Source of the DNA: Byssovorax sp.
Lineage (GTDB): Bacteria > Myxococcota_A > Polyangia > Polyangiales > Polyangiaceae
DNA: 64,000 nucleotides
Assembly: GCA_025362495.1 (NCBI GenBank)
Contig: JANYGI010000139.1
Span: forward strand, 1-64,000
Direction of reading: 5' to 3'
Below, one piece after another: positions 48,678-60,361 of this stretch; within the stretch, counting starts at the first letter, position 1; every line of letters starts with the position of its first letter. Below the pieces are notes generated by a model that saw only the letters and a list, made by a program, of their open reading frames with translations, was not told where the DNA came from and did no database searches. Position numbers and translations under genes: made by a program.

Positions 48678-48704
48678 GCGGGCGCGCCCGCGAACGGGTA
48701 TACT
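48678..48704 (+). promoter_or_regulatory. Palindrome and possible -10 box ahead of the Rrf2/cysteine operon
   Basis: In the 90-base divergent gap, GCGGGCGCGCCCGC (48678-48691) is a perfect 14-bp palindrome. TATACT (48699-48704) is a good -10 hexamer; no good -35 is seen. Transcription would start near 48711, only a few bases before the ATG at 48716. That favours the GTG at 48740 as the translation start. The palindrome could be an autoregulatory site. Confidence 0.4.
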
Positions 48705-48739
48705 TGACTTCTCCGATGGGGGAACGCATATCCCGGGGC

Positions 48740-49192
48740 GTGAAGCTGTCCAACAAGGGCCGCTACGGGGTGCGGGCGCTGTTCGACATCGCCTTCCACA
48801 ACGCCGGCCGCGCGACCCAGATCCGCGAGATCGCCGAGCGCGAGCTGATTCCGGCGCGCTTCCTCGAGCAGATCTTCCAGGACCTGAAGAAGGCCGGCCT
48901 CATCGCCTCGAAGCGCGGCCCGCGCGGCGGCTACCAGCTCGCGCGCCCCGCCGCCGAGATCACCGTCGGCGACGTGATCCGCGCGCTCGAAGGCCCCGCC
49001 CTCGTGACGCTGGGCGAGGAAGAGTCTGCCGGGCGTCGGGTCGGCCCCGACGCGACGGCCGCCGCATTCCGCGAGATTGCGGCGACCGTCGAGAAATGCT
49101 TCGACGCGATCACCATCGCCGACATCTGTGTTCGCGGCGAGGCGATGGGCGCCCTCCGCCACTCCCGTGAGCGCACCAGCTACGTGATCTGA
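48740..49192 (+). CDS. Rrf2-family (CymR-like) transcriptional regulator
   Basis: The 150-residue DNA-binding regulator probably controls the cysteine operon that follows. The family start K-L-S-N-K-G-R-Y-G-V-R-A-L is seen right after the GTG at 48740. The recognition part has I-P-A-R-F-L-E-Q-I-F-Q-D-L-K-K and S-K-R-G-P-R-G-G-Y. There are only two cysteines, in a C-terminal part (E-K-C and D-I-C), and not the three-Cys cluster of IscR. This fits the cluster-free CymR kind, which in other bacteria senses cysteine status with cysteine synthase. CysK is the next gene, directly after the stop. An ATG 24 bases upstream is possible. Confidence 0.85.
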   Translation: MKLSNKGRYGVRALFDIAFHNAGRATQIREIAERELIPARFLEQIFQDLKKAGLIASKRGPRGGYQLARPAAEITVGDVIRALEGPALVTLGEEESAGRRVGPDATAAAFREIAATVEKCFDAITIADICVRGEAMGALRHSRERTSYVI

Positions 49193-50155
49193 ATGAGCAC
49201 CACCACCACCCTGCCCAGGCCCTCGCATCCGCTCGTCGTCGACAGCGTGCTCGACCTCGTCGGTGATACGCCGCTGTTCGAGATCCGCCGCCTCGACGCC
49301 GAGGCGCCGCGCGGGCGCGTCTACGGCAAGGCCGAGCACATGAACCCCGGCGGCTCCGTGAAGGACCGCATCGGCCTCGCGATGATCGAGGCTGCCGAGG
49401 CCTCGGGCGAGCTGCAAAAAGGCGCGGTCGTGATCGAGCCGACGTCGGGCAACACCGGCATCGCGCTCGCCATGGCCTGCGCCGCGAAGGGCTACCGCTG
49501 CATCCTCACCATGCCCGCGAGCATGAGCCTCGAGCGGCGCTTGCTGCTGCAAGCGTACGGCGCCGAGCTCGTCCTCACCGATCCCGAGCGGCAGATGGAC
49601 GGCGCTCTCGAGAAGGCGCGCGAGCTCGCCGCGGCGACGCCGGGCGCGTTCCTGCCGTCGCAGTTCGACAACCCCGAGAACCCGCGCGCCCACGCCGCGA
49701 CGACGGCGCGCGAAATCCTCCACGCGCTCGCGGGCGAGCGGATCGACGCGTTCGTCTCCTCGGTGGGTACCGGCGGCACGATCAGCGGCGTCGGCCGCGT
49801 CCTCCGGCAGGTGCGCCCGCGCCCGCGCATCATCGCCGTCGAGCCCGACGCCTCGGCGACGATCTCGCGCGGCGAGCGCGGTCCCACCAAGATCCAGGGC
49901 CTCGCTGCCGGTTTTGTCCCCGCGAACTACGATGCTTCGGTCGTCGACGAGATCCGCACCGTGACCGATCGCGCCGCGTGGGACACCAAGGGCGAGCTCG
50001 CTCGCAAGGAGGGGCTGCTGGTCGGCATCAGCGCCGGCGCCGCGGTCCGCGTGGCCCTCGACGTCGCGCGCGAGCTCGGGCCGGGCTCGGTCGTCGTCAC
50101 CATCCTCTGCGACACGGGCGAGCGCTATTTCAGCCTCGACGAGCACTTCAAGTGA
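49193..50155 (+). CDS. cysK: Cysteine synthase (CysK family)
   Basis: This makes cysteine from an activated serine and a sulfur donor, with PLP. The 320-residue enzyme has P-G-G-S-V-K-D-R with its PLP lysine, the substrate loop T-S-G-N-T-G, and G-T-G-G-T-I-S-G for the cofactor phosphate. A 17-residue N-terminal extension precedes the fold. The ATG abuts the regulator stop. Since CysM follows in the same operon, two cysteine synthases are present. One may use sulfide and the other the thiocarboxylate carrier. CysK is also the usual partner of CymR. Confidence 0.9.
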   Translation: MSTTTTLPRPSHPLVVDSVLDLVGDTPLFEIRRLDAEAPRGRVYGKAEHMNPGGSVKDRIGLAMIEAAEASGELQKGAVVIEPTSGNTGIALAMACAAKGYRCILTMPASMSLERRLLLQAYGAELVLTDPERQMDGALEKARELAAATPGAFLPSQFDNPENPRAHAATTAREILHALAGERIDAFVSSVGTGGTISGVGRVLRQVRPRPRIIAVEPDASATISRGERGPTKIQGLAAGFVPANYDASVVDEIRTVTDRAAWDTKGELARKEGLLVGISAGAAVRVALDVARELGPGSVVVTILCDTGERYFSLDEHFK

Positions 50156-50880
50156 GCGACGTGGCCTCCGCGAACGTGGTGATCATCGGCGCCGGCGGCA
50201 TCGGCGCGCCGGCGGCGATGGCCCTCGTCGCGGGGGGCGCGCGGCGGCTCATCGTCGTCGACGACGACACGGTCGAGATATCCAATCTCCACCGGCAGAT
50301 CCTCTTCACCGAGGCCGACGTCGGCCGCTCCAAGCTCGACGCCTTCGCCGCCGCCGTCGAGGCCCGCGCCCCGGGCGTCGTGGTCACGCGCGTCCCCGGT
50401 CGTGCCCTCCCGTTGACGGTGGCGACCATCGTCGCCGACGCCGCGGTGGTGATCGACGCCACCGACAACTTCGCCTCGCGCTTCCTCCTCGCCGACGCCT
50501 GCGCCTTCGCGAAGGTGCCTGTCGTGCACGCCGCGGCCGTGCGCTGGCAAGCGACGGTGATGGCCGTTCCGGCGGGCGGGCGCCCCTGCTACCGCTGCCT
50601 CTTCGAGGACGTCCCGCGTGGCGACGCGCCCGACTGCGCCACGGCAGGCGTCGTCGGTCCCGTCTGCGGCGTCGCGGGCGCCCTCGCGGCCGATCGCGTC
50701 CTGCGCCTCCTCGCGGGCGACGCCTCGACGTACGGCCACATCGTCACCTACGATGGATGGCGCGACACGCTGCGGAGCGTGCCAGTCCCCGCCCGACCTG
50801 GCTGCGCCCTCTGCGGCGCGGCGCCGACGATTCACGGAATACTCGCCAGCCGTTATCTCGCACCTGCGTGCGGCCTTTGA
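50152..50880 (+). CDS. ThiF/MoeB-like E1 adenylyltransferase for the sulfur carrier
   Basis: This activates the C-terminus of a ubiquitin-like sulfur carrier as acyl-adenylate so that sulfur can be added. The 242-residue protein has G-A-G-G-I-G (13-18), the conserved N-L-H-R-Q-I-L-F, and two CxxC zinc pairs (C146/C149 and C218/C221). The likely reactive Cys is C162 in D-C-A-T-A-G. It lacks the N-terminal E1 segment with R-Q-x-x-L-P-E-x-G, which appears instead in the small gene at 51182. There is no rhodanese domain. GTG overlaps the cysK stop. The carrier gene follows 18 bases later. Confidence 0.9.
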   Translation: MSDVASANVVIIGAGGIGAPAAMALVAGGARRLIVVDDDTVEISNLHRQILFTEADVGRSKLDAFAAAVEARAPGVVVTRVPGRALPLTVATIVADAAVVIDATDNFASRFLLADACAFAKVPVVHAAAVRWQATVMAVPAGGRPCYRCLFEDVPRGDAPDCATAGVVGPVCGVAGALAADRVLRLLAGDASTYGHIVTYDGWRDTLRSVPVPARPGCALCGAAPTIHGILASRYLAPACGL

Positions 50881-50898
50881 CCGATCAGGAGAACAGCC

Positions 50899-51180
50899 AT
50901 GGAAGCCAGCAGCACCGTTCGTATCCCCACCCCGCTCCGCACCCTCACGGCCGGCAACGACGAGGTCAAGGCGGCCGGCGCCACCGTCGCCGCCGTGATT
51001 GACGATCTCGAGAAGAACTACCCCGGGATCAAGGACCGCCTCCTCGACGAGAAGGGCGTCCGCCGCTTCGTCAACATCTACGTCGGCGAGGAGGACATTC
51101 GCTTCCTCGAAGGCCTCAAGACCGAGCTCAAGGGCGGCGAGCAGATCACGATCGTCCCGGCGATCGCGGGCGGATGCTGA
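50899..51180 (+). CDS. cysO: CysO-like sulfur carrier (MoaD/ThiS fold) ending Gly-Gly-Cys
   Basis: The 93-residue ubiquitin-like carrier has the MoaD/ThiS fold: V-R-I-P-T-P-L-R, then N-D-E-V-K-A-A-G, V-N-I-Y-V-G-E-E-D-I-R and I-T-I-V-P-A-I-A-G-G. Active carriers end in Gly-Gly, whose carboxylate becomes a thiocarboxylate. Here one more codon, TGC, puts Cys93 after the Gly-Gly, and the stop follows. So the gene product must lose the Cys to work, or it mimics the CysO-cysteine adduct of the Mycobacterium pathway. The JAMM peptidase in the operon is the natural candidate to remove it. The context (E1, CysM, JAMM) matches CysO. Confidence 0.88.
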   Translation: MEASSTVRIPTPLRTLTAGNDEVKAAGATVAAVIDDLEKNYPGIKDRLLDEKGVRRFVNIYVGEEDIRFLEGLKTELKGGEQITIVPAIAGGC

Positions 51181-51181
51181 G

Positions 51182-51472
51182 ATGAGCGCGCGGTTCGTCC
51201 GGCAGGTGCTCCTCCCCGAGATCGGGATCGAGGGCCAGGCGCGCATCGGTCGGGCGACCGCCGCGCTCTCCGGCGCCTCGGCCGCGCACGAGATAGCCAG
51301 TCTCTACGCCGCGGGCGCCGGCTTTGGCGCCCTGGCGACGGGGCCAATCGACGTCGACGCCCTCGCGCCGGAGGCCATCGTCGCCACGCCGGCCGCGCGC
51401 GAGGTGCTCGCCGGATCGCGGGCCGCGCTCGCCGCGATCCGCGCCGCCGTGCGCTCGGGGGAGGCCTCGTGA
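51182..51472 (+). CDS. Miniature E1-like protein with degenerate nucleotide site
   Basis: The 96-residue product begins like the N-terminus of MoeB/ThiF enzymes: R-F-V-R-Q-V-L-L-P-E-I-G-I-E-G-Q. Where the E1 glycine loop (G-A-G-G-x-G) should be, it reads S-G-A-S-A-A. The chain ends after another 55 residues with no catalytic or zinc part. It cannot be an E1 alone. The full E1 in this operon lacks just this N-terminal segment, so the two may complement each other, or it may be a shortened paralogue. The ATG is two bases after the carrier stop and its end overlaps cysM (GTGA), so it is kept as a coupled gene. Confidence 0.7.
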   Translation: MSARFVRQVLLPEIGIEGQARIGRATAALSGASAAHEIASLYAAGAGFGALATGPIDVDALAPEAIVATPAAREVLAGSRAALAAIRAAVRSGEAS

Positions 51473-52419
51473 GGAGCGCCCTCGTCCGCTCGCGCAAGCT
51501 CGGATCGGTGGCCGAGGCCGTGGGCAATACGCCGCTCGTCCGCCTGCACCACGTCGGCCGCGACGCGCCCTCCGTCGAGATCTACGCCAAGCTCGAGTTC
51601 TGTAACCCGGGCGGCTCGGTCAAGGATCGCGCCGCCCTGCGGATGATGACCGAGGCCTTCAAGAGCGGACAGCTCACCTCGGACAAGATCCTGATCGACT
51701 CCACCAGCGGCAACACCGGCGTTGCTTACTCGATCTTCGGCGCGGCGCTCGGCGTCCGCGTCCAGCTCGTCATGCCCTCGAACGTGAGCAAGCCCCGCAA
51801 GGACATCGCCGCGGCGTTCGGCACCGAGATCCTCTTCAGCGATCCGATGGAGGGCTCGGACGGGGCCATTCGCCGGGTGCGCGAGATCGTCGCCGCCGAC
51901 CCGGATCGCTATTTCTACCCGGATCAGTACTCCAACCCCAATAACCCTCTCGCCCACTACCACGGTACGGGCAAAGAGATCCTCGACGCCGTCGGCGACC
52001 GGATCACGCACTTCGTCGCGGGGCTCGGCACCAGCGGCACCATCATGGGCACCTCGCGGCGCCTCCACGAGCACACGCACCCGATCCGCTGCATCGCGGT
52101 CGAGCCGACCGAGGCGCTCCACGGGCTCGAGGGCCTCAAGCACCTCCCGAGCTCGCTCGTGCCGGCGATCCACGACGCGCGGGCGTACGACGAGACGTTC
52201 CGCGTCAGCACCGAAGATGGCTGGGACATGGCCGATCGGCTGGCCCAGGACGAGGCGCTGCACGTCGGCCACTCGTCGGGCGCCAACGTGTTTGCGGCCC
52301 TCGAGATCGCCAAGCGCCTCCACGCCGAGGGGCGCGGCGGCTGCGTCGTGACCATCCTCTGCGATCGCGGCGATCGCTACTTTTTGCCGATGAAATGGGA
52401 GAAGCGGTACACATGGTGA
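51469..52419 (+). CDS. cysM: CysM-type cysteine synthase
   Basis: The 316-residue PLP enzyme probably joins the carrier thiocarboxylate to an activated serine, giving CysO-cysteine. It has N-P-G-G-S-V-K-D-R with the PLP lysine, S-T-S-G-N-T-G, and G-L-G-T-S-G-T-I-M-G. The C-terminal part ends K-W-E-K-R-Y-T-W, as does the chain of actinobacterial CysM, whose C-terminus covers the active site. It is fused by overlap to the JAMM gene. CysM in Mycobacterium uses O-phosphoserine; the same is likely here from context, but the sequence alone does not prove it. Confidence 0.9.
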   Translation: MRSALVRSRKLGSVAEAVGNTPLVRLHHVGRDAPSVEIYAKLEFCNPGGSVKDRAALRMMTEAFKSGQLTSDKILIDSTSGNTGVAYSIFGAALGVRVQLVMPSNVSKPRKDIAAAFGTEILFSDPMEGSDGAIRRVREIVAADPDRYFYPDQYSNPNNPLAHYHGTGKEILDAVGDRITHFVAGLGTSGTIMGTSRRLHEHTHPIRCIAVEPTEALHGLEGLKHLPSSLVPAIHDARAYDETFRVSTEDGWDMADRLAQDEALHVGHSSGANVFAALEIAKRLHAEGRGGCVVTILCDRGDRYFLPMKWEKRYTW

Positions 52420-52964
52420 ACGTGGCTGAGCACCCCTGGACGGCCGGCGGGCTCTCGATCAGCAAGGCGGTGCTGGCCGCCGTCGAGGCCGACGCCATCG
52501 CCGGCTACGCGAAGGACGAAGAGGCCTGTGGCTACCTGCGCGGTCCGGCCGGCGAGGCCCTTCACTGCGACGAGCACGTGAAGATGGTCAACGTGGCCAA
52601 CAAGCTCCATGCGCTCGATCCCGAGACGTATTTTCGCACCGGCCGCACCTACTTCACCTTCAACGAGAAGAAGTTCGACGACGCCGTCGCCGCCTCGGCG
52701 AAGGAAGGCCGGCCGGTCAAGGTGCTCTATCACTCGCACCTCGACGCCGGCGCGTACTTCAGCCCGACCGACAAGGCCGTGATGAGCATGGGCGAGGCGC
52801 CCAGCGTCGAGGGCGGCCCGATCACGATGGGCAACGGGCCCAACTGGCCTCTCGCGTTCCTGGTCACCAGCGTACGCGAAGGGAAAATCGCCGAGCACAA
52901 CCTCTTCATCTGGAGCGCCGAGGCGCGCGATTTCGTCGTCTCGCCGCTCCACGTCGTCGAGTGA
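52413..52964 (+). CDS. mec: JAMM/MPN+ metallopeptidase (Mec-like)
   Basis: The 183-residue zinc peptidase should cut after Gly-Gly of the sulfur carrier, releasing cysteine. The JAMM motif is complete: a glutamate near residue 37 (D-E-E-A-C-G-Y), H107-S-H109, and S117-P-T-D120. The ATG at 52413 overlaps the cysM stop and gives a proper start; 52395 is an alternative. Mycobacterial Mec removes cysteine from CysO. In this operon the same enzyme could also cut the encoded Cys from the carrier. QbsD and HcyD are known JAMM peptidases that remove extra C-terminal residues from sulfur carriers. Confidence 0.9.
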
Positions 52965-52995
52965 CGCTCTCCCCTCTTCACGCCTCGGAGCATTG

Positions 52996-54702
<1,707 letters not shown>

Positions 54703-55891: not shown

Positions 55892-57247
55892 GTGCCCCGA
55901 GCGCTCCCGTCGATCCTCGTCGCGCTCGCGCTCACCTCCGCCACCACGTTCACCACGTTCAGCCGGGAGGCGCGCGCCGATCTCGACGACGACGCCGCCC
56001 GGCTCGCCGCGAGCTGGACGGCGCGCGGCGCGATGCTGGAGCGGCTCGATCCGGTCTTCCTCGAGCGCGGACGATCCCGGGTGATCGATCTCGATCGCCC
56101 GGGCCAGCTCGCGAAGACCGAGAAGTCGGGGTGCGTGACGGTGGCGATCCTCGCGGCGCGGACCACGGATCTCCTCGCCGACGAGGGCGACGCCTCGGCG
56201 CACAAGATGCTCGATCCCGCGGCGGCGCCGCTGGCGCCGCTGGTGCCTCCGTCGCCGCACGGCGAGGACGAGCACCGCACCCGCAGCGCGGGCGGTGCCG
56301 CGGTGATCTCGCGCTGCGGCGCGGATTCGTTTGAGCTCAAACGAATCACGGTCGAGACCACGTCGCCGCGCGCGGCGGTGGAGATCCTGGTCGCGCGATC
56401 ACCGGCCGCGCTCGGCGAGATCAGCGAGGCGCTGCCCGAGCGCGCGGCGGGGCTCCTGGCGCCGCGCGGCGATCCCGGCGGCCTGATCGAGCCCGGCCCG
56501 ATCGGCGAGCGCATCGCCCGCGCCGAGCGCCGCGCGCGCAGCGAGGGCGCGTCCCGCGTCGTGAAGACGGTGACCCGCGCGTCGCCCGCGGGTCTCGGGC
56601 GCGTCACGCTCAAGCTCGGCGAGGGCTGCCATCGCCTCGATCTGATGGCCGAGGTGCCGAGCGCCGTCCCGCGCCGGGCCACCGATCTCGACGCCGAGGC
56701 CCATGTGCAGGAGGGCGGCCGCCTGCTCGCGCGCGATCGCGCCGACGTGCCCGACGCGCGCCTCGACTTCTGCCTGGGCGAGCTGACCCTGGTCGACGTG
56801 GCCTTCGCCGGGGCCTCGGGCGCCTCGCCGGTGACGGTGAGCGACGCGGTCTGGACGACGCCGAAGAGCCTCTCTGCGCGCTGGGGCCCGCGGGCGCGAG
56901 CGGGCTTTGCCGGGGCGATGCGGAAGCGCCATGCGCCGGCGCCGGTCGATGATGCCCTGTTCGAGGCCGTCGGTATCCAGGGGATCACCCAGGTGCCGAT
57001 AGCGGTCACTCCGGGTCAGTGTTACCTCGCCGCCGTGGGCTTGATTCGAGGCGACGCGCGGGCCATCCGCCTCGCGGCGACCCTCGGTGATCGCGCCCCC
57101 CACGACGAGGCGCTGGAGCGCCCCGAAGGCGCGGCGATCGCCTTCTGCGCGGGCCCTTCGCGCTCGGCCGTGATCGACGTCGACGTGCGCGGCAACGGCC
57201 CCTGGTGGGCCCTCTCGGTGTGGGGAATGGGCGCCGCTTCGTTCTGA
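55892..57247 (+). CDS. Exported protein with three repeats carrying paired cysteines
   Basis: The 451-residue protein has a signal peptide (residues 1-29) and no recognised family. It is built of at least three beta-rich repeats, each with one cysteine pair: C81/C142, C246/C294 and C377/C419. Each repeat begins with G/Q-C-x-x-(L/V) and its second Cys lies at the end of a strand. Long Ala/Arg/Pro linkers join them. It resembles the lipoprotein at 58664, suggesting a shared domain family. Start is GTG at 55892. The Cys pairs are likely disulfides in the periplasm. Confidence 0.65.
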   Translation: MPRALPSILVALALTSATTFTTFSREARADLDDDAARLAASWTARGAMLERLDPVFLERGRSRVIDLDRPGQLAKTEKSGCVTVAILAARTTDLLADEGDASAHKMLDPAAAPLAPLVPPSPHGEDEHRTRSAGGAAVISRCGADSFELKRITVETTSPRAAVEILVARSPAALGEISEALPERAAGLLAPRGDPGGLIEPGPIGERIARAERRARSEGASRVVKTVTRASPAGLGRVTLKLGEGCHRLDLMAEVPSAVPRRATDLDAEAHVQEGGRLLARDRADVPDARLDFCLGELTLVDVAFAGASGASPVTVSDAVWTTPKSLSARWGPRARAGFAGAMRKRHAPAPVDDALFEAVGIQGITQVPIAVTPGQCYLAAVGLIRGDARAIRLAATLGDRAPHDEALERPEGAAIAFCAGPSRSAVIDVDVRGNGPWWALSVWGMGAASF

Positions 57248-57438
57248 GTCACACGGCGAGGAGGCCTGAAGTGCAGGCGGCCTGACGCGTCGGGAGACTC
57301 GGTATCGGCGTCCGGCTCGGCTCTCTCGCTTTCCGGGGACCGTCGGTTGCATACGATCTCGGCGACACCAGAGGAGACGAGCGCGAGATGGTCGGCCATC
57401 GGCAGGCCGCGCCGCGCCCGCGCTGGATGAGGGGGACC

Positions 57439-58602
57439 ATGACGACCAATCTGCTCGATCTGGCGCGGGCGCAGCTCACGCCCGCCGTGATTCAACGCGC
57501 GAGCTCGCTCGTGGGCGAGAGCCCCGCAAATACCCAGCGAGCGATGGAGACGGCCGCGCCGACCATCTTCGCCGGGATCGTCCACGAGGGCTCTTCCGTC
57601 GCGGGAGCGAGCCAGTTGCTGCAGCTCCTCGAAGAGACGGGGCTGACGGGCTCGATGGCCGGGCTCGCCGAGCGCAACGAGGCCGAGAGCGGTGCGCTCG
57701 ACTCGCTCGTCGGCACGGGCAAAGAGCTGTTCGGTCGCCTCTTCGGCGGGCGCGCGGGCCCGCTCGTCGACGCGACGGCGGCCTCGTCCGGCGTCAAGCG
57801 ATCTTCGATGTCCTCGCTCCTCGGGCTCGCCACTCCCCTCGTCCTCGGCGCGGTCGGGAGCGAGGTCGCCACACGGCACCTCGACGCGGCCGGCCTGGCC
57901 TCGCTGCTCGGCGAGCAGAAGAGCGCTGTCGCGAGGTTGCTCCCGACCGGCGCCGCGGCGGCGCTCGGCCTGTCGGGCGTCTCCGCGCGCGAGCCGGTCG
58001 ATACCCGCGCTGCGGTGGTGAAGCCCGCGCCGGCGCGCTTCCCCTGGGTGCTGGTCCTGGCCATTCCGCTGGCGTTGATCGTCGGCTTCGCGCTCCGCAA
58101 TCGGGCGAACCACCAGCGCGCCGCCCAGCGCGCGCCCGACGTCATGGTGGCCCCGCCGGTCGTCCTGGCGCCGCCGGCTGCCAATGGCCCTCTCGTGGGG
58201 CAGGGGATTGCCAGTCAGCAGCTCGCGCAGATCCTGGCCGCGCCTGACGGCCAGGTGCCGAAGCGCTTCGTGCTCGACAACCTCGCCTTCGATACGGCGA
58301 CAGCGCAGCTCGCCCCGGGCGCGGCGACCACGCTCGACAGCGTGGCAGCGGTGCTGAAGGACCATCCGACCTCGCAGATCGTGCTCGAAGAGCACACCGA
58401 CGACGCCGGTGATCCGGCGGGCAACCGCGTGCTTTCGCAGAGCCGGGCCGACGCGGTCAAGGCAGCTCTCGTGGCGCGCGGTGTCGCGGCGGACCGGATC
58501 AGCGCGCTCGGCCTGGGGCAGGATCGGCCGATGGTGCCGGATGATTCGGAGGGCGCGCGGGCGCAGAACCGGCGGACGGAGATCGTGGTCGTGAAGCGAT
58601 AG
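57439..58602 (+). CDS. DUF937-like protein with OmpA C-terminal domain
   Basis: The 387-residue protein begins with a helical domain like DUF937 (L-L-D-L-A-R-A-Q-L-T-P and repeated Ala/Gly-rich helices). One transmembrane helix follows (about 200-220), then a linker and an OmpA-like peptidoglycan-binding domain (L-A-F-D-T-A-T-A, then E-E-H-T-D-D-A-G, R-A-D-A-V-K-A-A-L and N-R-R-T-E-I-V-V). The N-terminal domain would be in the cytoplasm and the C-terminal one would touch the cell wall. The ATG at 57439 follows GAGGGGG; an upstream in-frame start at 57388 is less likely. The 190 bases before it hold no gene. Confidence 0.8.
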   Translation: MTTNLLDLARAQLTPAVIQRASSLVGESPANTQRAMETAAPTIFAGIVHEGSSVAGASQLLQLLEETGLTGSMAGLAERNEAESGALDSLVGTGKELFGRLFGGRAGPLVDATAASSGVKRSSMSSLLGLATPLVLGAVGSEVATRHLDAAGLASLLGEQKSAVARLLPTGAAAALGLSGVSAREPVDTRAAVVKPAPARFPWVLVLAIPLALIVGFALRNRANHQRAAQRAPDVMVAPPVVLAPPAANGPLVGQGIASQQLAQILAAPDGQVPKRFVLDNLAFDTATAQLAPGAATTLDSVAAVLKDHPTSQIVLEEHTDDAGDPAGNRVLSQSRADAVKAALVARGVAADRISALGLGQDRPMVPDDSEGARAQNRRTEIVVVKR

Positions 58603-58663: not shown

Positions 58664-60361
58664 GTGCTCCCGCGCCGCGCCGCCTCCGCGCTCCTCCTCG
58701 CTCTCGCCGCGCTCACGGCCTGCGGCGCCGCGCCGTCGCCTCCTCCCGCGCCGGCGGGGCCGCCGCCGGTCACGTCGCTTCACGTGCTCCCGGATCGCCT
58801 CGACGCGCGCCCGTGGCTCGCGCCGCAGGCCGCGGTGGCCTCGGCCGCCGGCGCGGGCCCGCTCCAGATCCTCGGCGCCGACGTCGCGTCGGAAGGCGAT
58901 CGACTCGGCGCGTTCGTCGCGATCCCCGAGGACGAGTGCCTGCTCGCGTACACGCGCGCGTCGCCCACGATCGTCGACGTCGATCTCTTCGCCTACGACG
59001 ACGACGGCAGCGCGTTCGCGACCGACGAGTCGCCCGAGGTCGAGGCGGCGGTGCTGGTGTGCCCCCCGCACCCGCGTCGGCTCTACGTCGTCGCGCGCGT
59101 CATGGCCGGCGCGGGGGTGCTGGCGATCGGCGTGCAGAGCGTGCCGCGCTCGGCGGAGGCCGCCGTCGCGAAGGCCGTCGGCGCGCGCGGACGACCCGGC
59201 GAAGACAGCGGAAAGCTCGACGCGTGGCCGGGGCTCGAAGGGCGGATCCGCGCCCATCGGCTCGGCATCGGCGCGCGCTGGGAAGACGTGCGCCGCGTCG
59301 TCGTCCCGCTCAGCCCGCGCGCCGCGACGCGGATCTCCGCGACGATCGAGGCCAACCGCTGCATCGATGTGCTCGCGACGCCGAGCGAGGAGATCGCCTC
59401 GTTCGATCTGCTCGCGGAGGACACGAGCGCGCGCATCCTCGCGCGCGGGCGCGAGCAGGGGCGCGATCGTTCGCTCGTGCTCTGCTCGGCGACGGCCGTC
59501 TCGATCTCGCTCTCGGTGCGGCCACGCGCGTCGCAGGGGCTCGCGGCGATCACCATCGGTCGCTCCAGCAATTTCGCTGCGAAGGAGATCAGCGCGAGCG
59601 CGCGGATCATCAGCGTCACGCAGCCGGCCGAGCTCGACGCGGCCCGTCGCGCGCTCGACGCCGAGCTCGGCAGCAAAGGGTACGCGGCCCCGAAGAGCGT
59701 CGCGACGGGCACCGCGCGCGTCGGCTCGCGCACCTCGATCAGCCTCGATTTGCCGGCTGGATGCGCGCGCCTCGACGTGATCTCCGGTCGCCCGCTCGCC
59801 GACGTCGCCGCGACCCTGTGGGACGACAGGGGCGCGATGATCGCCGACACGCGCGGCGGCGCAGGCGCCACGATCTTCGCGTGCGGCAAGGGGGGCGCGG
59901 CGCGCCTCGATCTCGAGGCGCTGGAGAGCCCCGGCCCGTTCGCCGTCGAGGTGCGCAGAGATCACACGGCGCCGCCGCTGCTCGTCGCGCACCCGATCGC
60001 GGCGGCGCGGCTGCTCGAGCGCCTCGGCGCCGGCGGCGATCCGATCGACGCTTCAGCCGCCGCCTCGGCGACGCTCGTGCAGCTCGATCCCGCGCAGCTC
60101 AAGACGTTCCCGCTCACCGTCGCCGCGTCGACGTGCGTCGAGGTGATCGCCGCGCTCGACGGCGGCGGCACCGGCGTCGATCTCCGCCTCGTCGCGCTCG
60201 GGACCGATGGAACGATGACCCGCTCGCCCGAGGTCGCCGGTGATCGCCTCTGCGCCGGGACGACGCCGGTTCAAGGGGCCTACGAGCTGCGCCTCGGGGC
60301 GGGCAAGGCCGACGCGCTGGTGGTCACGCGCGTCATCGCCGCGGAGCACGATCGACCGTGA
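58664..60361 (+). CDS. Lipoprotein with four Cys-pair repeats
   Basis: The 565-residue lipoprotein (lipobox L-T-A-C, C20) has four repeats of about 130 residues. Each holds one Cys pair with almost the same spacing: C92/C133 (41), C233/C274 (41), C367/C407 (40) and C491/C530 (39). Within each, C-x-x-V/L-x-x is followed by a D-V-D-L- or F-D-L-L-like strand, then a glycine turn and a strand ending at the second Cys. This looks like a disulfide-closed jelly-roll. No known family was recognised. The start is GTG at 58664. It shares repeats with the protein at 55892. Confidence 0.75.
   Translation: MLPRRAASALLLALAALTACGAAPSPPPAPAGPPPVTSLHVLPDRLDARPWLAPQAAVASAAGAGPLQILGADVASEGDRLGAFVAIPEDECLLAYTRASPTIVDVDLFAYDDDGSAFATDESPEVEAAVLVCPPHPRRLYVVARVMAGAGVLAIGVQSVPRSAEAAVAKAVGARGRPGEDSGKLDAWPGLEGRIRAHRLGIGARWEDVRRVVVPLSPRAATRISATIEANRCIDVLATPSEEIASFDLLAEDTSARILARGREQGRDRSLVLCSATAVSISLSVRPRASQGLAAITIGRSSNFAAKEISASARIISVTQPAELDAARRALDAELGSKGYAAPKSVATGTARVGSRTSISLDLPAGCARLDVISGRPLADVAATLWDDRGAMIADTRGGAGATIFACGKGGAARLDLEALESPGPFAVEVRRDHTAPPLLVAHPIAAARLLERLGAGGDPIDASAAASATLVQLDPAQLKTFPLTVAASTCVEVIAALDGGGTGVDLRLVALGTDGTMTRSPEVAGDRLCAGTTPVQGAYELRLGAGKADALVVTRVIAAEHDRP

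Follow-up and report, generated by a model that had tools for sequence, protein, structure and literature searches.

Exported proteins carrying tandem PPC-like jelly-roll domains with a conserved cysteine pair, encoded next to a CysO-type cysteine cluster

Two exported proteins, A and B, containing three and four copies, respectively, of a domain with a conserved pair of cysteines were identified in the window, i.e., the whole stretch of 64,000 nucleotides analyzed here (Table 1). These proteins probably consist of PPC-like jelly rolls arranged in tandem, three in the soluble protein A and four in the lipid-anchored protein B, each closed by one predicted intradomain disulfide, and would constitute stapled binding or structural modules of the envelope. 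The domain appears to be a divergent, uncatalogued branch of the PPC domains rather than a new fold, the copies in the window being missed by Pfam. A set of unannotated exported proteins can thereby be placed in a well-delimited branch of a fold already known, the predicted disulfide is open to test, and the repeats receive a profile that is lacking in Pfam. The most surprising result is the tie between these proteins and a gene cluster devoted to making cysteine.

Table 1. Features of the window: the cysteine cluster, proteins A and B, and their domains. Percentages are probabilities obtained in profile-profile comparisons.
Feature	Position	Strand	Remarks
Rrf2-family regulator, start of the conserved cysteine cluster	48689..49192 (first base approximate)	+	
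CysK, PLP enzyme of cysteine synthase type	49193..50155	+	PALP
Activating enzyme, ThiF/MoeB-type	50155..50880 (first base approximate)	+	
CysO-type sulfur carrier, ThiS family	50899..51180	+	C-terminus AIAGGC
Short frame between CysO and CysM	51176-51472		Overlaps both; no Pfam hit
CysM-type PLP enzyme	51469..52419	+	PALP
Mec-type JAB/JAMM metallopeptidase	52395..52964	+	Prok-JAB
CysC-Sat, APS kinase-ATP sulfurylase fusion	52993..54702	+	
Protein A, exported, three Cys-pair domains	55892..57247	+	451 aa; signal peptide ends between ARA and DL
Domain A-D1, residues ~52-182	56045..56437	+	Cys81-Cys142; long loop insertion; with B3, 85%
Domain A-D2, residues ~222-328	56555..56875	+	Cys246-Cys294; with B3, 97%
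Domain A-D3, residues ~352-451	56945..57244	+	Cys377-Cys419; with B2, 96%
OmpA/DUF937 fusion protein, between A and B	57388..58602	+	
Protein B, lipoprotein, four Cys-pair jelly-roll (PPC-like) units	58664..60361	+	565 aa
Signal peptide II and lipobox of B	58664..58723	+	LTAC, residues 17-20 (Cys20)
Domain B1, residues ~66-170	58859..59173	+	Cys92-Cys133; PPC-like DxDL...D motif kept
Domain B2, residues ~198-306	59255..59581	+	Cys233-Cys274; B2 of a homolog near the Pfam PPC cut-off
Domain B3, residues ~342-436	59687..59971	+	Cys367-Cys407; modelled, eight strands, pLDDT 86.7
Domain B4, residues ~462-562	60047..60349	+	Cys491-Cys530

The cysteine pair and its conservation

Protein B is a bacterial lipoprotein by the lipobox test, the cysteine of the LTAC motif lying behind a signal peptide, and this residue is kept in 50 of the 51 B homologs aligned. 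Translation of the two frames gave cysteines 20, 92, 133, 233, 274, 367, 407, 491, and 530 in B and 81, 142, 246, 294, 377, and 419 in A. The spacings reported in the initial annotation (41, 41, 40, and 39 residues in B; 61, 48, and 42 in A) were thus borne out, as was the absence of any unpaired cysteine from both proteins apart from the lipobox Cys20. No redox-active CXXC motif is present. When eight cysteines were placed at random, none of 200,000 trials gave four successive pairs 39-41 residues apart; conservation is a stronger test of the pattern than this chance calculation.

Of the 52 rows in the B alignment, among which the sequence identity to B drops to about 20%, practically all retain the eight paired cysteines (for Cys530, 48 of 49), and the six of A are retained in all 38 rows of its alignment. 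In the domain copies found at all the related loci retrieved, the two cysteines are kept together: both are present in 479 of 480 distinct copies, the exception being located at a contig edge. The spacing is 41 residues in 251 copies, 40 in 82, 42 in 49, and 39 in 28; the largest values reach 66. Since profiles containing cysteines could select for cysteines, the search was also run with the cysteine columns blanked, and both residues were found in 461 of 466 copies. The five exceptions (the contig-edge copy mentioned above, one whose cysteine falls directly next to the aligned column, and three weak matches out of register) can apparently be put down to misalignment or to the end of a contig. 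Among close relatives of the window, the looser first two pairs of A go with longer loops: the first pair is spaced by 41-46 residues in many homologs and by about 50-61 in the window copy and those most closely related to it, and the third by 41-42 throughout the A alignment. In a few B homologs (L015, L020, L021, L027, L029, and L030), an extra, apparently unpaired cysteine occurs exactly 20 residues past the second cysteine of pair 1 or 2.

Judging from their sequences, all seven repeats of A and B are members of one domain family. In profile-profile comparisons, the B repeats were joined mutually at 96-99% probability and the A domains joined them at the values given in Table 1, versus at most 3.7% in the reversed-profile controls, and the cysteines were in register in the resulting alignments. 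In a single-profile search of the open reading frames of the window, the B3 model matched protein A at an E-value of 2.2e-6. The shared ancestry of the repeats would also be compatible with the spacing being a by-product of their duplication, the cysteines forming no disulfide at all. However, the B repeats share just 14-20% identity, and still the cysteines survive in essentially every copy, and the invariant columns of the domain consist of these two residues along with a few glycines and one aspartate, which makes a mere by-product highly improbable. One disulfide very probably pins each unit, as far as can be told from the residues conserved. Because single-domain paralogs encoded in the genome of the window keep the pair (C229-C274 in L133 and C187-C235 in L135), the simplest assumption is that the cysteines pair within one domain; a pattern dominated by disulfides between domains was rejected on the same grounds.

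Proteins with the cysteine pair are widespread in the related genomes, for which a survey had been proposed in the initial annotation. Of 184 genomes of the order, 127 contain B relatives, weak paralog matches included, and 89 contain A relatives. The search with the B alignment gave matches in 157 of 290 genomes sampled in the class and in 98 of 331 genomes drawn from the phylum, a draw which includes the class; elsewhere in the phylum, most of the matches are short and low-scoring. A contig scan gave Minicystis rosea as the sole match, and no literature on the A or B proteins was found.

Fold and relationship to PPC domains

Neither A nor B gave a hit with Pfam, where the gathering score of the PPC family (PF04151, 25.9 bits) was not reached, and with Pfam and NCBIfam together nothing was obtained besides a chance match to LptM. 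No match was obtained when the PDB was searched with the B sequence or with the A and B profiles, while the profile of the wider family gave weak hits only, including Tk-SP (9ues) at an E-value of 2.2. The relationship to PPC was detected with a profile built from the PPC domains of related genomes, which matched B1 at 93% and B2 at 59%; the direct link was not significant in the case of B3, B4, and the A domains, which are connected with PPC only via other repeats. The B2 domain of the nearest homolog scored 25.0-25.6 bits against Pfam PPC, just under the cut-off. Pfam PPC matched 9 of the 55 members of the wider family, two of which passed the cut-off with their whole-protein scores (35.9 bits in L164 and 33.0 in L165); these scores sum several repeats, no single stretch passing alone. 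In L130, one Cys-pair domain and Pfam-PPC domains occur in the same polypeptide. The placement of the domain as a divergent PPC branch is based on the B1 and B2 profile matches, the Pfam matches among family members, this mixed protein, and the folds nearest to the B3 model. The statement in the initial annotation that the domain could not be matched to a named family therefore fails, given this remote homology, the nine Pfam matches, and the PPC-type nearest folds described below: a hit to a known family such as PPC, which had been named beforehand as the outcome that would speak against it, was essentially what was obtained.

The alignments for structure prediction were made up of sequences from the window and from a single locus of Minicystis rosea (L061). 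The B3 model, based on an eight-row alignment, is an eight-stranded jelly roll (pLDDT 86.7) in which C367 (C30 of the model) lies on strand 3 and C407 (C70) on strand 6, in keeping with the jelly roll for which a structure prediction had been suggested as a check. The nearest solved fold is the C-terminal jelly roll of the subtilisin Tk-SP (VIA Z 12.2, rmsd 2.1 over 97 residues), followed by the GOLD domain of TMED1 (Z 11.0; 10.3 for another TMED GOLD match), the collagen-binding domains of ColH (10.7) and ColG (about 10), the C-domain of KP-43 (9.6), and the PPC domain of a Bacillus anthracis collagenase (9.5), with 5sv5 also among the best. The model of full-length B, made from two sequences, was poor (mean pLDDT 52), but each repeat contained about eight strands, arranged in a common order; its Foldseek list was used only to note that jelly rolls occurred in it. 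The repeated beta domain with a predicted disulfide closure, as proposed initially, is thus well supported by the invariant cysteines, the homology of the repeats with their cysteines in register, and the eight-stranded B3 model.

The presence of TMED GOLD domains among the PPC-type folds means that a match in fold does not by itself identify the family. No Pfam GOLD match was listed, and the similarity to GOLD is one of fold. The repeats might form a separate jelly-roll family, for example a GOLD-like one, which came to resemble PPC by convergence: the p24/TMED domains rank close, they also carry a conserved disulfide (PMC11414720), and B3, B4, and A give just a weak direct signal with PPC. 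However, the 93% probability of the B1-PPC match contrasts with less than 4% in the controls, Pfam PPC is matched by members of the family itself, and the two cysteines of the GOLD disulfide are about 72 residues apart (C49-C121 in TMED9), unlike the spacing of about 41 found here. A separate origin is accordingly rather improbable.

The classical jelly roll has strands 3 and 6 side by side in one sheet, with strands 4 and 5 forming part of the opposite one. If the PPC-like domains adopt this topology, the cysteine at the start of strand 3 would face that at the end of the antiparallel strand 6, and the predicted disulfide would bracket the excursion of strands 4 and 5 to the other sheet; a fixed excursion between the two cysteines would explain the near-constant spacing of 39-42 residues. 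By analogy with the halolysin SptA, such a staple would most likely make each domain a stable unit that resists proteases in the extracytoplasmic environment. Strung together, the units most likely serve as a non-catalytic module for binding or for structure at the envelope, and the products of the conserved gene pair, A and B, most likely work together.

Association with the cysteine cluster

From the cluster to protein B, the genes of the window are arranged in the order Rrf2, CysK, ThiF, ThiS/CysO, short frame, CysM, JAB, CysC-Sat, aldo/keto reductase (AKR), A, OmpA/DUF937, and B, all on the plus strand and separated by -25 to 140 nt. The CysO-type cluster (48689-54702) is complete. The CysO-CysM-Mec sulfur-carrier route is known from mycobacteria, and the gene set of the window matches it; MoeZ and CysO are the subject of PMC3227635. 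In the relatives, small frames similar to that located between cysO and cysM recur at the same place, and CysO mostly ends in GG, some forms having a few extra residues which a JAMM peptidase could trim.

The A and B genes have stayed beside the cysteine-making cluster across several bacterial families. Genes of the cluster were found near A/B in 42 of the 51 sampled genomes of the order, which were chosen for their B relatives and not at random: in 22 of 25 in the family of the window and in 20 of the 26 others with enough flanking sequence. The two groups of genes are mostly co-directional in the family of the window and mostly divergent, 1-4 kb apart, elsewhere. In the regions read from three genomes of another order, none of the cluster genes was present. 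The AKR, OmpA/DUF937, and methyltransferase genes of the window were found in none of the 41 related loci searched with tblastn, so that the region is not simply syntenic, and general chromosomal synteny was rejected as the cause of the association. At a dozen loci belonging to other families of the order, the gene of a kinase about 600 residues long (Pkinase in Pfam), a member of one conserved protein kinase family, lies between the cluster and A/B on the strand of the latter (for instance, L156 11153-12901 (-), L157 6793-8610 (+), L170 14813-16717 (-), and L171 7750-9549 (+)). Three or four Cys-pair proteins with one, three, or four domains are encoded side by side at loci L154, L157, L161, and L163, which suggests repeated gene duplication.

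A and B might on this basis act as sensors or outputs in a circuit linked to the cysteine supply, forming one module with Rrf2, CysO-CysM-Mec, and the Ser/Thr kinase. The frequency of the adjacency in both sets of genomes and the lack of the other window genes at the 41 loci, the kinase family inserted on the A/B strand, and the uniform orientation and short gaps in the window are all in favor of such a circuit. But a single shared transcript is unlikely where the blocks diverge 1-4 kb apart, the cluster genes are missing from the regions of the three genomes of another order, and a neighborhood can persist without any function, so that we regard the circuit as doubtful. The more specific possibility that the oxidative folding of the disulfides, or exported thiols, would report the cysteine or redox state is just as questionable. 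That A and B act throughout the order as functional partners of the CysO-type cluster, i.e., as an envelope module coupled to the cysteine supply, possibly along with the kinase, is advanced as a tentative and on the whole unlikely proposal. The conserved link nevertheless turns into a concrete hypothesis the idea of cysteine-coupled envelope proteins.

Comparison with known systems

The PPC domains share with the present family the eight-stranded jelly roll, the occurrence in exported proteins, often in tandem, the DxDL-like core motif conserved in B1, the kinship detected with profiles, and the Pfam matches of its distant members. They differ in that the copies of the window lie under Pfam detection and that A and B have no attached peptidase domain according to Pfam, an association which is common but not obligatory in PPC proteins. 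In addition, the cysteine pair spaced by about 41 residues, which is present in nearly every copy of the window family, is not shared by the 29 Pfam-PPC domains from related genomes, many of which show other cysteine patterns.

The C-terminal jelly roll of Tk-SP (PDB 3AFG, 9UES) is the nearest fold to B3, but it is a protease appendage with only 16% identity. The domains of ColG and ColH (PDB 1NQD, 3JQW) are likewise jelly rolls (Z about 10), which occur in tandem in ColG, and differ in being known to bind collagen and calcium. The GOLD domains of the p24/TMED proteins are also eight-stranded beta sandwiches with a conserved disulfide, but they are eukaryotic, their cysteines are more widely spaced, and no sequence link with the present family was found.

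In the C-terminal extension of the halolysin SptA, which is jelly-roll-like, the Cys303-Cys338 disulfide guards against proteolysis (PMC3158780). This extension belongs to a haloarchaeal protease, to which it is appended in single copy. It nonetheless contains one disulfide, supported by mutations and spanning 35 residues, in a domain of the jelly-roll type (PMC3158780), and is by analogy the best experimental parallel for the staple predicted in A and B.
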